Origin: Pseudomonadaceae bacterium SI-3
GTDB taxonomy: Bacteria; Pseudomonadota; Gammaproteobacteria; Pseudomonadales; Pseudomonadaceae
Direction of reading: 5' to 3'
Assembly: GCA_004010935.1 (NCBI GenBank)
Contig: CP026511.1
Location: forward strand, 2,976,001-3,040,000
Length of the DNA stretch: 64,000 nt
The position numbers and the translations under genes are program-made. Under the pieces are notes generated by a model. The model saw only the letters and a list, made by a program, of their open reading frames with translations. It was not told the origin of the DNA and did no database searches. Shown here piece after piece: positions 6,814 to 47,837 of the stretch (position 1 is the stretch's first letter; each line of letters starts with the position of its first letter).

Positions 6814-9264
6814 ATGAAGAAACTCAAGCTGGTGATGATTGGCAATGGCATGGCCGGGGTTCGCACCCTTGAAGAGTTGCTCAAGCTCGCCCCTGAGCTC
6901 TACGACATCACGGTGTTCGGTGCTGAGCCCCATCCGAACTACAACCGCATCCTGCTTTCCCCCGTATTGGCCGGCGAACAGACCTTCGAGGAAATCGTGC
7001 TCAACGATCTCAGCTGGTACGCCGAAAACAACATTCGTCTGATGCTCAACCGCAAGGTGGTCGAGATCGACCGCGCCAAGCGCCGCGTGATCGCCGAAGA
7101 CGGCAGCGAGGCCGAGTACGACCGCCTGCTGATCGCCACCGGCTCAAACCCCTTCATCCTGCCGATCCCGGGCAACCAGCTCGACGGCGTGATCGGCTAC
7201 CGCGACATTGCTGACACCCAGAAGATGATGGACACCGCCAAGACCCACAAGCACGCCGTGGTCATCGGCGGTGGCTTGCTCGGACTGGAAGCGGCCAATG
7301 GCCTGAAGCTGCGCGGCATGGAGGTCACCGTAGTGCATATCGGCGAATGGCCGATGGAGCGTCAGCTCGACAAGACAGCCGGCACCCTGCTGCAGCAGGC
7401 ACTGGAAGCCCGTGGGCTCAACTTCAAGATGCAGAAGCAGACCGCCGAGCTGATCGGCAACGATCAGGGCCGAGTACGAGCCGTGCGTTTCGCCGATGAC
7501 GAAGTGATTGACGCGGATCTGGTGGTGATGGCCGCTGGCATCCGTCCCAACAGCGAACTCGCTGAACAGTCTGGAATTCCCTGCAACCGCGGCATCCTGG
7601 TCAATGACACCCTGCAAACCTACGACCCGCGTGTCTATGCAGTTGGTGAATGCGCCAGTCATCGCGGCACCGCCTACGGACTGGTGGCGCCGCTGTTCGA
7701 GCAGGCCAAGGTCTGCGCAAACCATCTGGCAATGCTGGGTTTCTCGCGTTACCTGGGATCGGTGACGTCGACCAAGCTGAAGGTCACCGGCATCGACCTG
7801 TTCTCCGCAGGCGATTTCCTCGGCGGCGAAGGCACCGAAACCATCACCCTCTCCGACCCCATCGGCGGCGTGTACAAGAAGCTGGTGATCAAGGACAACA
7901 TCCTCGTCGGGGCCTGCCTGTACGGCGACACCGCGGACGGTGGCTGGTACTTCCGTCAGGTGCGCGAAGGCCATAACGTCAGCGAAATCCGCGATCACCT
8001 GATGTTCGGCGAAGGTGCCATCGGCGACACCGGTCACCAGGGCCAGAACAAGGCCATGGCGATGCCCGACAGCATGGAAGTCTGCGGATGCAATGGCGTG
8101 TGCAAAGGCGAGATCGTCAAGGCGATACAGGAGCACGGGCTGTTCTCGGTCGACGATGTGAAAAAGCACACCAAGGCCGCCAGTTCCTGCGGCTCCTGCG
8201 CTGGGCTGGTGGAACAGATTCTGATGAGTACCGTCGGCGGCGCTGCGGACGTGAAACCGAAAAGTGAAAAAGCCATCTGCGGCTGCAGTGACCTGAACCA
8301 CGGCCAAGTGCGCAAGGCCATTGTCGACGAACACCTGATCAGCATCCCGGCGGTGATGAGCTATCTGAACTGGCGCACGCCCAACGGCTGCGCCACCTGC
8401 CGCCCGGCCCTGAACTATTACTTGATCTCTTCATGGCCCGGCGAAGCCAAGGACGATCCACAGTCGCGCTTCATCAACGAGCGCGCCCACGCCAATATCC
8501 AGAAGGACGGAACCTATTCAGTCGTCCCGCGGATGTTCGGCGGCGTGACCAATGCCGCCGAGCTGCGCCGCATCGCTGACGTCGCCGACAAGTACCAGGT
8601 GCCGATGGTGAAGGTCACCGGCGGCCAGCGCATCGACCTGCTGGGCATCAAGAAGGATGACCTGCCAAACGTCTGGAAGGACCTAGACATGCCCGATGGC
8701 CACGCCTACGGCAAATCCATTCGCACGGTAAAGACCTGCGTCGGCAAGGAGTTCTGCCGTTTCGGCACTCAGAATTCGACCGGGCTGGGCATCGATCTGG
8801 AGAAGGCACTGTTCGGGATGTACTCGCCGCACAAGGTCAAGCTGGCCGTCTCCGCCTGCCCGCGCAACTGCGCCGAATCCGGTATCAAGGACGTCGGCAT
8901 CATCGGCGTCGATTCCGGCTGGGAGCTGTACGTCGGTGGCAACGGCGGCATCAAGACCGAGGCCGGCGAGTTTTTCGTCAAGGTCAAGACCGCCGAGGAA
9001 GTCGCCGAATACAGCTTCGCCTTTCTCCAGCTCTACCGCGAGGAAGGCTTCTACCTCGAACGCACCGTGCACTACATGCAGCGCGTCGGCTTGGAATACA
9101 TCAAGAAAATAGTTCTGGAAGACGAAACCCGGCGCAAGGCGCTGGCCCAGCGGCTGATGTTCTCGCTGAGTTTCGAGGGCGATGGCTGGAAGAAGGCCAT
9201 CGCCGAGCAATCGTTGAAGAAAGAATACGAAACCATCCAGTTGGCCCAGATCGAGCCCGCGTGA
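6814..9264 (+). CDS. nirB: assimilatory nitrite reductase [NAD(P)H], large subunit
   Basis: An 816-residue cytoplasmic enzyme that reduces nitrite to ammonium with NAD(P)H. In order: FAD-binding GNGMAG at the N-terminus, NAD(P)-binding VIGGGLLGLEAA, two BFD-type [2Fe-2S] segments (CGC at 424-426 with C430; CGC at 489-491), then ferredoxin-like half-domains and the siroheme/[4Fe-4S] site with C642, C648, C682 and C686 (TCVGKEFC, CPRNC). I chose the ATG at 6814 for its CGGAG site and because NirB proteins start just before GNGM; the frame itself is open much further upstream. NirD follows after 54 bases. Expression is under the leader described above. CobA, encoded later in the cluster, makes the siroheme precursor. 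Confidence 0.95.
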   Translation: MKKLKLVMIGNGMAGVRTLEELLKLAPELYDITVFGAEPHPNYNRILLSPVLAGEQTFEEIVLNDLSWYAENNIRLMLNRKVVEIDRAKRRVIAEDGSEAEYDRLLIATGSNPFILPIPGNQLDGVIGYRDIADTQKMMDTAKTHKHAVVIGGGLLGLEAANGLKLRGMEVTVVHIGEWPMERQLDKTAGTLLQQALEARGLNFKMQKQTAELIGNDQGRVRAVRFADDEVIDADLVVMAAGIRPNSELAEQSGIPCNRGILVNDTLQTYDPRVYAVGECASHRGTAYGLVAPLFEQAKVCANHLAMLGFSRYLGSVTSTKLKVTGIDLFSAGDFLGGEGTETITLSDPIGGVYKKLVIKDNILVGACLYGDTADGGWYFRQVREGHNVSEIRDHLMFGEGAIGDTGHQGQNKAMAMPDSMEVCGCNGVCKGEIVKAIQEHGLFSVDDVKKHTKAASSCGSCAGLVEQILMSTVGGAADVKPKSEKAICGCSDLNHGQVRKAIVDEHLISIPAVMSYLNWRTPNGCATCRPALNYYLISSWPGEAKDDPQSRFINERAHANIQKDGTYSVVPRMFGGVTNAAELRRIADVADKYQVPMVKVTGGQRIDLLGIKKDDLPNVWKDLDMPDGHAYGKSIRTVKTCVGKEFCRFGTQNSTGLGIDLEKALFGMYSPHKVKLAVSACPRNCAESGIKDVGIIGVDSGWELYVGGNGGIKTEAGEFFVKVKTAEEVAEYSFAFLQLYREEGFYLERTVHYMQRVGLEYIKKIVLEDETRRKALAQRLMFSLSFEGDGWKKAIAEQSLKKEYETIQLAQIEPA

Positions 9265-40032: not shown

Positions 40033-40231
40033 TATTTTGCTCTTAGGATCGAAAACAGCCGACTTTTCGGCGCTAGAACACCATCCGAGCAGTGCAAACC
40101 GCTACTTTAAATCTACGATGTACAATTTTTTTTGAGGGTCGTCGGAGTTGACGACAGGCAAGCACATCGCGGCCAGACGCAAGCGCCTGACGCAAGATGA
40201 AGCGAAGAAGGAATACAGACGATAGAAACGA

Positions 40232-40256
40232 AAAAAGCGGCCCTAAGGCCGCTTTT
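40232..40256 (-). terminator. terminator of tRNA-Asp
   Basis: On the minus strand AAAAGCGGCC-TTA-GGGCCGCTTTT plus further T residues, about 30 bases past the tRNA 3' end. No other gene is evident in 39907-40286. Confidence 0.85.
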
Positions 40257-40286
40257 CGCGTGGCTTCCGCAGAAGGGAAGCAAATA

Positions 40287-40363
40287 TGGCGCAGCGGACG
40301 GGACTCGAACCCGCGACCCCCGGCGTGACAGGCCGGTATTCTAACCGACTGAACTACCGCTGC
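40287..40363 (-). tRNA. tRNA-Asp (GTC anticodon)
   Basis: The minus strand reads GCAGCGG (acceptor), TAGTTCAGTCGGTTAGA (D arm), CCGGC-CTGTCAC-GCCGG (anticodon arm, anticodon GTC), the TTCGAGT T-loop in GCGGG-TTCGAGT-CCCGT, then CCGCTGC, discriminator G and an encoded CCA. All stems pair. Length is 77 bases including CCA. Confidence 0.97.
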
Positions 40364-40446
40364 GCGTCGGCTGGACTTTCGTCCGACTCGCAAGGCGTTT
40401 AGTGTCAACCGTTAAGGCTGATGGCTGATCGCCCTGCGAGGCGCGC

Positions 40447-40475: not shown

Positions 40476-40712
40476 CAGTGTGTCGCGATTTTTTCAAAAA
40501 TATTCCAAGCCCTCGTGGCCCCATCGCTCATTCCACGACCTCCGGGCACCTTTTGCCTGAAAAACAGTCAGTTGCACTGGCATACTCAAGTGCTTCTTTG
40601 TCATGGTCCGGGTCTACACTGGCACTCAAGCCCGCTGTTCATATTGTCAGCAACCGCCGCCGCGAGTCAGCGTTCATGACCATCAAACATTTGGTTTCAC
40701 GGAGTGCCTAGC

Positions 40713-41351
40713 TTGGCTTTCCCCGCAGCACTGCAGAAAATTCGCCGGTTTGCGCCCCTGATCCTCAGCGCAGTCATTGTCGTGCTATTTGGTCTCTACC
40801 TGGCCAGTCAGGTCATGGCCTGGCTCAGACTGACCCAAACGCCGCCTGCAGCCATCACGGACAGCAGCCAACCCGCCGGGGCCGCGCCTGATCTGGAGCG
40901 AATGGAAGGGTTGTTCGGTTCCCCGGCCTCGAGCGGACAAAGCTATACGCCCGGCAAATCGAGTTCTGATCTAACCTTGCTAGGCAGCTTCGTTCATGCC
41001 GACCCCGCTCGGTCGACTGCGATCATTCAGTTAAGCGGCCAACCGCCACAGCTTTATCGGGTCGATCAAGAACTGGAGTCAGGGGTGCGCCTGTACAGCG
41101 TTCAACCTGACAGGGTTGAGGTAAAGCGTGGCGGTCGTATTGACAGCCTGTTCTTCCCAAGCGTCCGTTCTCCGACGGCCGTGCCCGATAGCCTGCCCGA
41201 CTACAGTGAACCAGCGGAGATGGAAGCTCCCGATCCGCAAGCGGAGATGCTTCAACAGCAAATGGAAGCACTCCGGCAACAAATGGAAGGGGCTGCTACA
41301 AGCCCGCTAGAAACCATGCCCTCCGACGAACAGACCACGGAAGACAACTGA
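40713..41351 (+). CDS. gspC: type II secretion inner-membrane protein GspC (XcpP type)
   Basis: About 212 residues: a short cytoplasmic tail, one membrane helix (LILSAVIVVLFGLYLASQV), then a periplasmic HR-type domain (LTLLGSFVHADPARSTAIIQLSGQPPQLYRV). It ends in a Gln-rich helix (MLQQQMEALRQQMEG), a likely coiled coil in place of a PDZ domain, as in P. aeruginosa XcpP. The GTG at 40704 is only three bases from GGAG, so I prefer the in-frame TTG at 40713, eight bases from it. It connects the secretin to the inner-membrane platform. gspD follows after three bases. No gspE-M genes are nearby. Confidence 0.85.
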   Translation: MAFPAALQKIRRFAPLILSAVIVVLFGLYLASQVMAWLRLTQTPPAAITDSSQPAGAAPDLERMEGLFGSPASSGQSYTPGKSSSDLTLLGSFVHADPARSTAIIQLSGQPPQLYRVDQELESGVRLYSVQPDRVEVKRGGRIDSLFFPSVRSPTAVPDSLPDYSEPAEMEAPDPQAEMLQQQMEALRQQMEGAATSPLETMPSDEQTTEDN

Positions 41352-41354
41352 CCG

Positions 41355-43631
41355 ATGCTGCCTTTTTCCTCCCGCCCGCTCATTGCATTGATCGCCGCCG
41401 GTCTGCTCGCCGCCCCCCTGCCCCTATACGCGGCCGATCCCGGAATCGAACCAAGCGAGACCCAACAGGACGGCTGGACGATCAACCTTAAGGACGCCGA
41501 CATTCGGGCCTTCATTGACCAGATCAGCCAACTGACCGGACAGACCTTCATCGTTGATCCTCGCGTAAAGGGTCAGGTGAGCGTCGTATCGTCTACGACC
41601 CTCTCGCTGGAAGAGGTCTACCAATTGTTCCTGTCGGTCATGGCAACTCACGGCTTCAGCGTACTCACACAGGGTGAGGTCGCCAGAATTGTGCCGAATG
41701 CCGAAGCGAAATCGGAGGCCGGTGGCGGTCCGACTGGAGGGGATCTGCTGGAAACCCGCGTCATCCAGGTCCAACACACCTCCGCGACCGAGCTGATCCC
41801 ACTGATCCGCCCACTGGTTCCACAGTACGGACATCTCGCTGCGGTCAGCTCGGCGAACGCGTTGATCATCAGCGACCGTAGCGCCAACATCGCACGCATC
41901 GAAGAGCTGGTCCGACAGCTCGACCAAGCCCAGAACGACGATTACTCAGTGGTGAATCTGCAATATGGCTGGGCCGTCGACATCGCTGAAGTCCTGCGCA
42001 ATACCCTGGCACGCGGCGAGGCCAAGGACACCGCAGGTGCGCAGATCATTGCCGATTCGCGCACCAATCGCCTGATCTTCACCGGACCGGAACTGGCGCG
42101 CCAGAAGCTGGCCAGCCTGGCCAAGACACTCGATACGCCCAGCACGCGCTCAGCCAATACGCGGGTGATTCGCCTTCGCCACAATGACGCCAAGTCGCTG
42201 GCCGAGATGCTCGGCGACATTTCCGAAGGCCTCGCCGAACAGGGGGATGGCGAGGTCCAAGGGGGAGCGGGACGTCAGCAGAACATTCTCATTCGCGCGG
42301 ACGAGAGCCTCAACGCACTGGTCATGCTGGCGGAGCCCGAACTGATCTCGACTCTCGAATCAATCGTGCGCCAGCTCGATGTGCCGCGGGCGCAGGTGAT
42401 GGTGGAGGCGGCCATCGTTGAGGTATCAGGCGATATCACCGACGCCCTTGGCGTGCAGTGGGCCGTAGATGCACGAGGTGGCACGGGCGGCGTAGGCGGA
42501 GTCAGTTTTGGCAATACAGGCCTTTCCATTGGTACCGTGCTCAACGCCATCAATGACAATGAAATCCCCAACAATCTGCCTGACGGCGCGATCATTGGCG
42601 TTGGCACCCGGAGCTTTGGTGCACTGATCACCGCACTCTCCGCCAACAGCAAAAGCAACCTACTCTCCACCCCAAGCTTGTTGACGCTGGACAATCAGGA
42701 AGCCGAAATACTGGTTGGCCAGAACGTGCCGTTCCAAACCGGCACCTACACAACCGACGCTTCCGGCGCAAACAACCCATTTACGACCATTGAGCGGGAG
42801 GACATTGGTGTCACGCTCAAGGTGGTTCCGCATATCAATGAGGGCGCCACGCTACGCCTGGAGATCGAGCAGGAGATCTCCTCGATTGCGCCATCCGCCA
42901 GCCTTTCTGCTCAGGCTGTCGACCTGGTCACCAACAAACGATCCATCAAGAGCACTATCCTCGCTGAGGATGGCCAGGTCATCGTACTGGGGGGATTGAT
43001 TCAGGACGATGTGACCCGAACCGATTCGAAGGTGCCTCTGCTTGGCGACATCCCACTGCTAGGAGCGCTGTTCCGCTCAACGCAGGAAAGTCATATCAAA
43101 CGCAATTTGATGGTGTTTTTGCGACCGACCGTGATTCGCGACCGTGCTGGTCTGGCAGCATTGTCGGGTAAGAAGTACAGCGACATCCGAGTCATCGAAA
43201 CCAACCCCGGCAGCCCGACCATTCTTCCGGCCACCCCGGAAGGCTTATTCGATGGACAGGGACAACCAGCCCCGGCGATCGACCTGCGCTCCAACGAGCC
43301 CGAGCAACGCAGCCGCATGCCCTCTACTCCCGCAACGCAACGTGCACCGCAAAGCTTCACACCGCAAACGCAGCCGCCGATTCAGGCGTCCTCTCGCTCA
43401 GGCTGGGCAGTGCAACTGGCAAGCCTGCAAAACGGTGACAGTGCTCAGGCGCTGGCGAGCAAGCTTCGCGAGGAGGGCTTTGACGCCTACCTGCGCATTA
43501 CCGGCCGTACGCATCGGGTGTTCGTGGGTCCGATAGACAGTCGCCAGGAGGCCAATCGGGTTCGAGAAGAACTGGCGACTGAACAGCGTCTTGACGGTTT
43601 CGTGGTGAATTTCGAGCCGGCAAAAGACTGA
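41355..43631 (+). CDS. gspD: type II secretion secretin GspD fused to a C-terminal SPOR domain
   Basis: A 758-residue outer-membrane secretin. A signal peptide (residues 1-27, ending LPLYAADP) is followed by N0 (DGWTINLKDADIRAFIDQIS), N1-N3 domains, and the secretin domain (SNLLSTPSLLTLDNQEAEILVGQNVPFQTG; later VIVLGGLIQDD and PLLGDIPLLGALFR). After a Pro/Gln-rich linker (about 620-680), residues 682-758 are a SPOR domain (GWAVQLASLQNG... RVFVGPIDSRQEANR). It aligns without gaps to the SPOR domain of DedD encoded at 47208-47837, 37 of 77 positions identical by my count. SPOR domains bind glycan strands lacking stem peptides, so the fusion could tie the secretin to cell-wall sites. P. aeruginosa XcpQ (about 658 residues) has no such domain as I recall. 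Confidence 0.93.
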   Translation: MLPFSSRPLIALIAAGLLAAPLPLYAADPGIEPSETQQDGWTINLKDADIRAFIDQISQLTGQTFIVDPRVKGQVSVVSSTTLSLEEVYQLFLSVMATHGFSVLTQGEVARIVPNAEAKSEAGGGPTGGDLLETRVIQVQHTSATELIPLIRPLVPQYGHLAAVSSANALIISDRSANIARIEELVRQLDQAQNDDYSVVNLQYGWAVDIAEVLRNTLARGEAKDTAGAQIIADSRTNRLIFTGPELARQKLASLAKTLDTPSTRSANTRVIRLRHNDAKSLAEMLGDISEGLAEQGDGEVQGGAGRQQNILIRADESLNALVMLAEPELISTLESIVRQLDVPRAQVMVEAAIVEVSGDITDALGVQWAVDARGGTGGVGGVSFGNTGLSIGTVLNAINDNEIPNNLPDGAIIGVGTRSFGALITALSANSKSNLLSTPSLLTLDNQEAEILVGQNVPFQTGTYTTDASGANNPFTTIEREDIGVTLKVVPHINEGATLRLEIEQEISSIAPSASLSAQAVDLVTNKRSIKSTILAEDGQVIVLGGLIQDDVTRTDSKVPLLGDIPLLGALFRSTQESHIKRNLMVFLRPTVIRDRAGLAALSGKKYSDIRVIETNPGSPTILPATPEGLFDGQGQPAPAIDLRSNEPEQRSRMPSTPATQRAPQSFTPQTQPPIQASSRSGWAVQLASLQNGDSAQALASKLREEGFDAYLRITGRTHRVFVGPIDSRQEANRVREELATEQRLDGFVVNFEPAKD

Positions 43632-47207: not shown

Positions 47208-47837
47208 TCAGCCTTGCTCTGGCTTGAAACGTACAACGAACCCGTCGAGCTTCTGCTGTCGCTGCAATTGGTCCCGCAGACGATTGGCTTCCGCCCGCTC
47301 CACCAAAGGCCCCACGAAAACCCGGTTCATCCCGTCAGCAGTACGTATGTAGGCGTTGTAGCCTTGAGATCGTAGTGTTTTCTCGAGCTTGTCGGCGTTT
47401 TCACGGCTGGAAAGGCTGGCCAGCTGAACAGACCAACTGACCGGCAGATTGGCTGCGTCCAACCGCTGCTCATCAGTCGCTGCCGGCTTGACCGGTGGAG
47501 GCGGAGCGCTTGCCGACTCGGGAGTGACCGGAGCAGGCTGTGATCCCACAGGAGCAGGATTGATGGGGTCCGCCGGGCTATTGGATTCAGCCACAGGCCC
47601 TTCTTCGATAATTTCGTAATTTTCTGGGATCGGGTCGACCTCTGGCTCAGGTACCTCTACAGGCTGTGTCTCGATTGCCGGTGTAGCCGGTGTTTCAGGC
47701 ATTGCGGGCGGATCGACGGCAACCTGCTGGCCCGCATCATCACGATTGAAAAGCATCGGCACGAATATCACGGCCAGCGCAACAAGCACCAACGCGCCGA
47801 CGATACGTTGCAACAATCCTCTATCCACCAAGAGCAT
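47208..47837 (-). CDS. dedD: DedD-like SPOR-domain cell-division protein
   Basis: A 209-residue protein: one N-terminal membrane helix (IVGALVLVALAVIFVPMLF), a Pro/Glu-rich periplasmic linker, and a C-terminal SPOR domain (last 77 residues, SVQLASLSSREN... RVFVGPLVERAEANR). SPOR proteins gather at the septum by binding denuded glycan strands. I chose the ATG at 47837, preceded by GGTGGAGG; it overlaps the folC 3' end by 17 bases. Its SPOR domain is the closest relative in the window of the one fused to GspD. Confidence 0.92.
   Translation of the reverse strand: MLLVDRGLLQRIVGALVLVALAVIFVPMLFNRDDAGQQVAVDPPAMPETPATPAIETQPVEVPEPEVDPIPENYEIIEEGPVAESNSPADPINPAPVGSQPAPVTPESASAPPPPVKPAATDEQRLDAANLPVSWSVQLASLSSRENADKLEKTLRSQGYNAYIRTADGMNRVFVGPLVERAEANRLRDQLQRQQKLDGFVVRFKPEQG

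Follow-up and report, generated by a model that had tools for sequence, protein, structure and literature searches.

A C-terminal SPOR domain on the type II secretin GspD of Stutzerimonas

Wall-binding domains on secretins

The secretin LspD of Legionella has been called the sole known secretin of a type II secretion system (T2SS) with a predicted SPOR domain, and in its published description this domain stands at the N-terminus, before N0 (PMC6617341, PMC9239104). Another secretin with added wall-binding domains is PilQ of P. aeruginosa, whose AMIN domains position the type IV pilus machine at future division sites (PMC5285504); these domains are N-terminal and belong to a family distinct from SPOR. 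GspD pores consist of 15 subunits (PMC9239104), and in solved structures the C-terminal S-domain is the secretin region that is bound by pilotins, while the pilotin-independent ExeD has a flexible tail after the S-domain (PMC6532946). The subject of this analysis is a GspD of Pseudomonadaceae bacterium SI-3 that carries its SPOR domain at the opposite end as compared to LspD. Its gene lies in a stretch of 64,000 nucleotides (contig CP026511.1, positions 2,976,001 to 3,040,000), which is referred to as the window. The genus was taken to be Stutzerimonas from named matches (97% for S. stutzeri CLN100).

An earlier note, made from the sequence of the window alone, knew of no described T2SS secretin built like this GspD. 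The combination as such is not without precedent, as Legionella LspD has a SPOR domain too. In the literature on SPOR together with secretins or T2SS, with few subscription journals covered, no description of a C-terminal SPOR domain on GspD was found, and only LspD turned up. A further new observation is a DamX-like SPOR domain on a second GspD paralogue.

The SPOR domain of GspD

The protein is encoded by a single open reading frame (ORF; Table 1) and is a complete type II secretin, in which Pfam recognizes the N0 domain, three Secretin_N stretches, the Secretin domain and, as the only stretch of its kind and located after the secretin domain rather than before N0, a SPOR domain (PF05036, residues 681-751, E 7.3e-17, 61.9 bits against a cut-off of 21). 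The NCBIfam model type_II_gspD matches with 537.5 bits (cut-off 351), and residues 33-636 match the structure chain 5wln_G, which we take to be XcpQ, with 924 bits. By analogy to its solved relatives, GspD should form a 15-meric pore in the outer membrane. The Pro/Gln-rich linker is evident from the alignment and is modelled with low confidence, as expected of a disordered stretch, and the SPOR domain is predicted with values of the predicted local distance difference test (pLDDT) above 90 and in the order beta-alpha-beta-beta-alpha-beta that agrees with solved SPOR domains. The predicted fold begins at about residue 683, where the earlier note had placed the start at 682; its reading of the protein as a full secretin followed by linker and SPOR domain was thus borne out.

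All 26 GspD SPOR domains that were compared have W684, Q687 and the residues G725 and P726 of the GP turn. The conserved glutamine of SPOR domains contacts denuded glycan (PMC6895207), and this glutamine is retained in GspD together with the predicted fold. Two of the three arginines that form the basic patch in RlpA have basic counterparts in most of the 26 sequences.

The nearest SPOR domain of the genome is that of a DedD-like protein encoded close by, a short protein whose gene we take to be dedD in part from the gene order. Its end aligns with GspD residues 682-758 without gaps and with 37 of 77 residues identical, exactly as the earlier note had counted. The alignment scored 206, whereas 1000 shuffles averaged 32.5 and reached at most 54. 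Scored against the four other SPOR proteins of the genome, the GspD tail reached 199 with DedD, 57 with RlpA, 37 with the FtsN-like protein and 28 with DamX. The latter three names are in part our assumption; the proteins, encoded in loci L005, L004 and L003, resemble RlpA (DPBB + SPOR), DamX (AAA + SPOR, near pilQ) and FtsN. The NCBIfam models for RlpA, DedD and FtsN gave 37.1, 33.4 and 24.5 bits with the GspD tail, and 37.8, 34.3 (cut-off 150) and 31.0 bits with DedD of the window itself. As the RlpA model outscores the DedD model and all values are below the cut-offs, these models do not permit naming a donor. DedD of E. coli is an inner-membrane protein (PMC7642682).

Distribution and history of the fusion

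A search with the tail against 5.8 billion proteins, which reaches only proteins of similar length that have short words in common with the query, gave 69 matches from 263 candidates, one of them the protein of the window. All 69 consist of Secretin plus SPOR and have 746-758 amino acids, and those with names belong to Stutzerimonas or Pseudomonas. In genome surveys, counted by hand from the best matches listed, the architecture was found across the Pseudomonadaceae in at least 31 of 398 sampled genomes, as an end-to-end match at the Xcp-type gspD (open frames of 747-802 amino acids). Among the matches listed, 30 of the 56 genomes of the genus, including the own one, and a single genome of another genus (G094) have the SPOR-bearing form, 22 of the 56 have a short GspD without SPOR, and four (G004, G008, G009, G270; two of them less than 75% complete) have no full-size Xcp-type gspD. 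For 369 genomes of the class, the listed matches ran end to end in just the two that belong to the same genus, and in 21 genomes representing other families of the order no listed GspD match extended into the SPOR domain.

The point of joining is the same throughout, with the presence of SPOR scored for each locus by reading tails and lengths. The XcpQ-type GspDs of the Pseudomonadaceae share the core and, in the compared loci, the neighbours metZ, purF, cvpA and dedD, but all 24 SPOR-less forms, within and outside the genus, stop 1-5 residues past a conserved DLR or DVR, whereas all 30 SPOR-bearing forms continue from the same DLR, which in 29 of them is spelled PAIDLR and ends in the window with residue 645. 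In 12 SPOR-less loci that were examined (including L067 and L033), no SPOR relic was seen 3' of the short gspD. Alignments that ran past the stop of a short gspD, as in L065 and L052, were weak read-through, and SPOR matches in these regions were the dedD genes.

Trees of the concatenated neighbours MetZ, PurF and FolC and of the GspD core were each built from 48 of 54 loci, after six near-identical short loci had been dropped; the partial locus L070 had been excluded beforehand. Both trees require at least four changes of the SPOR state. As the outgroup has no SPOR, these changes are most simply explained by one gain and about three losses, and five gains without any loss would be one step worse. 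A single gain without loss, with all SPOR carriers held together, was rejected by the neighbour genes in the approximately unbiased (AU) test (p 0.0013); with the GspD core alone it was not rejected (p 0.12).

The earlier note had furthermore suggested that the end of the neighbouring dedD was duplicated onto gspD, and it had proposed a tree of SPOR domains. This tree comprises 96 sequences and 75 columns (26 from GspD, 42 from DedD of the family and 28 from DedD of other families; 12 of the 54 loci were dropped as near-duplicates). The GspD domains form one branch among the DedD domains of the Pseudomonadaceae (83/88, neither value being strong), and the DedD and GspD domains of the family are together set off from the DedD domains of other families (54/93, again not strong). 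The tree does not demonstrate that the GspD domains group with Stutzerimonas DedD, nor does the AU test reject it (p 0.60), and 75 columns are too few to single out the neighbouring dedD as the donor. The origin from a DedD-type domain, for which also the alignment scores speak, can thus be upheld, and the best reading is a single old acquisition from within the family; a recent local copy finds no support in the tree. As dedD and gspD are encoded on opposite strands and face each other, a local copy would also have needed an inversion.

The Pseudomonadaceae have a further, paralogous GspD that ends in a SPOR domain (L096, 7150-9486, minus strand; L098, 9378-11855, minus strand; and other loci of this second type). 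Like in the GspD of the window, a SPOR-fold domain follows a linker at the C-terminus, here rich in Pro and Ala, but the domain resembles that of DamX and not that of DedD, its Pfam scores are weak in some cases, and the locus is another one. The key glutamine is retained in only three of nine sequences. This is apparently a separate and independent fusion, and as it occurred at the same end of GspD, SPOR domains have probably been recruited there at least twice. In genome G256, a second gspC-gspD pair lies together with a gene for a predicted M66 peptidase with lectin domain between pnt and the gsp K-L genes (L096, 4283-17186), and one inner gsp set may serve two gspCD pairs in this genome. 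The L098 locus may correspond to the XphA/XqhA pair of P. aeruginosa; an ORF beside its GspD of the second type (8471-9163) matched no Pfam family and is not clearly similar to GspC.

Possible roles and genomic surroundings

How a secretin of megadalton size passes the wall without a wall-cutting enzyme of its own is a question on which this GspD may bear. Each subunit would have gained a peptidoglycan-binding domain on a flexible tether that, as it follows the S-domain region, should emerge from the secretin into the periplasm, close to the outer membrane, and judged by its length alone, the linker of 38 residues would by our own estimate allow the domain to reach the wall. With about 15 subunits per pore, some 15 weak binders could act jointly and grip glycan strands from which amidases have removed the peptides, and which would be richest at the septum and the young poles; an enrichment of denuded glycan is described for septa (PMC6895207) and for young poles (PMC5285504). 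The pore would in this way be held in the wall, and, as a more specific guess, its placement could be biased to division sites, as known from PilQ and its AMIN domains; also the PilQ of the own genome carries AMIN. Linker length, the joint action of weak binders, the location of the denuded glycan and the PilQ precedent let us favour a tethering of the secretin to amidase-stripped peptidoglycan as function of the domain, with a probability of roughly 0.6, and a possible septal bias. A real effect on secretin placement at the division site is conceivable by the same analogy, at somewhat less than even odds. It has been proposed that T2SS are assembled at the divisome (PMC6532946).

Several observations weigh against a tethering function. 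The domain is not essential, since the 22 genomes of the genus with a short GspD do without it, and about three lineages would have lost it. All 26 GspD domains have F or Y in place of the third arginine that RlpA has in its basic patch, and R721 is lost in two of them. Finally, the GspD domain changes faster than that of DedD, which is under much stronger constraint: the median ratios of nonsynonymous to synonymous substitutions (dN/dS) are 0.117 and 0.019, values that are rough because synonymous sites are near saturation.

This faster change would fit a looser need for binding than in a division protein, as would be expected if the domain were a merely static anchor that has no role in placement and steadies the pore against the pushing pseudopilus wherever it has been built. 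As wall-binding modules anchor also other trans-envelope machines (PMC9239104), such an anchor has to be taken seriously, at perhaps one chance in three. The same loose constraint, together with the losses, the replaced arginine and the rarely kept glutamine of the second GspD family, could also mean that glycan binding has largely been lost and that the domain is a tolerated tail, which perhaps contacts proteins or keeps the C-terminus soluble. With four invariant residues in all 26 GspD domains, the glycan-contacting glutamine among them, and with dN/dS far below 1, this is rather unlikely.

The domain might also substitute for a missing pilotin and promote assembly by bringing the monomers to the wall close to the outer membrane, in line with the suggestion in the earlier note that it could make a pilotin dispensable. 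Neither PulS/OutS nor AspS (PF09691, PF16549) was found in the own genome, with E. coli as positive control, and GspD contains no cysteine and is therefore not a lipid-anchored secretin. However, AspS was absent from the search results in all 56 genomes of the genus, irrespective of whether their GspD has the SPOR domain (for PulS the search covered the own genome alone), and the short secretins thus seem to manage without SPOR and pilotin alike. A special role of the domain in place of a pilotin is therefore improbable, and the idea was not sustained. That a frameshift or an assembly error has joined two genes can be practically dismissed, as the genome is a single contig, 69 proteins share the architecture, which 30 of the 56 genomes of the genus encode, the join is conserved in 30 of 30 loci, and nothing was found that would speak for it.

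That GspD has acquired two different SPOR domains at one and the same end points to selection more than to accident. In its widest and quite tentative form, the idea would be that in the Pseudomonadaceae a T2SS secretin has at least twice received a division-type SPOR domain, in one case DedD-like and in the other DamX-like, at the same point of its C-terminus, which made it a pore addressed to the wall. The machines would then already be in place at the septum and pass to the new poles by inheritance. This would be the T2SS counterpart of the PilQ-AMIN route, and helpers for wall cutting or piloting would not be needed. A clean natural test is offered within one genus by close relatives in which the same secretin either carries or lacks such a binder of septal glycan.

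Table 1. Features of the gspD region, in positions of the window
Feature	Position	Strand	Basis
gspD (xcpQ-type), secretin with C-terminal SPOR domain, 758 amino acids	41355..43631	+	ORF, Pfam, NCBIfam
N0 domain, residues 43-112	41481..41690	+	Pfam PF21305, E 7.7e-26
Secretin (pore) domain, residues 427-595	42633..43139	+	Pfam PF00263, E 8.6e-51
Join point, codons 644-645 (LR of PAIDLR)	43284..43289	+	comparison of loci
Pro/Gln/Ser-rich linker, residues 646-683	43290..43403	+	alignment; model pLDDT blocks 44-57
SPOR domain, residues 684-755, with invariant W684 and Q687	43404..43619	+	PF05036, model, residue counts
gspC, secretin partner, upstream of gspD in the same direction	40704..41351	+	Pfam T2SSC, E 7.8e-17
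dedD-like gene, ORF of 231 amino acids	47208..47903	-	last 75 codons (~47211-47435) encode the SPOR nearest to that of GspD

A single gspE and a single gspD of the own genome pass the curated cut-offs, and this gspD thus serves the only T2SS detected. The GspB profile PF16537 had no match in this genome, but no control genome was positive either, and GspA was not searched. The nine remaining components, E to M, are encoded in locus L079 (6227-13885), next to what are presumably genes of two pnt subunits. They are separated from gspCD by about 2.85 Mb according to the coordinates of the record, or by about 2.0 Mb the other way round if the contig is circular. The surroundings of gspCD, with metZ, purF, cvpA and dedD, resemble in gene order the xcp region of P. 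aeruginosa. GspC diverges much faster than GspD: in comparison to 15 SPOR-less loci of the genus, its identity is 42-48%, while that of GspD over the matched part is 84-87%. A small ORF of the window (40073-40408, minus strand) has a translation that resembles the read-through of a tRNA gene, judged by what we assume to be a tRNA-like motif.
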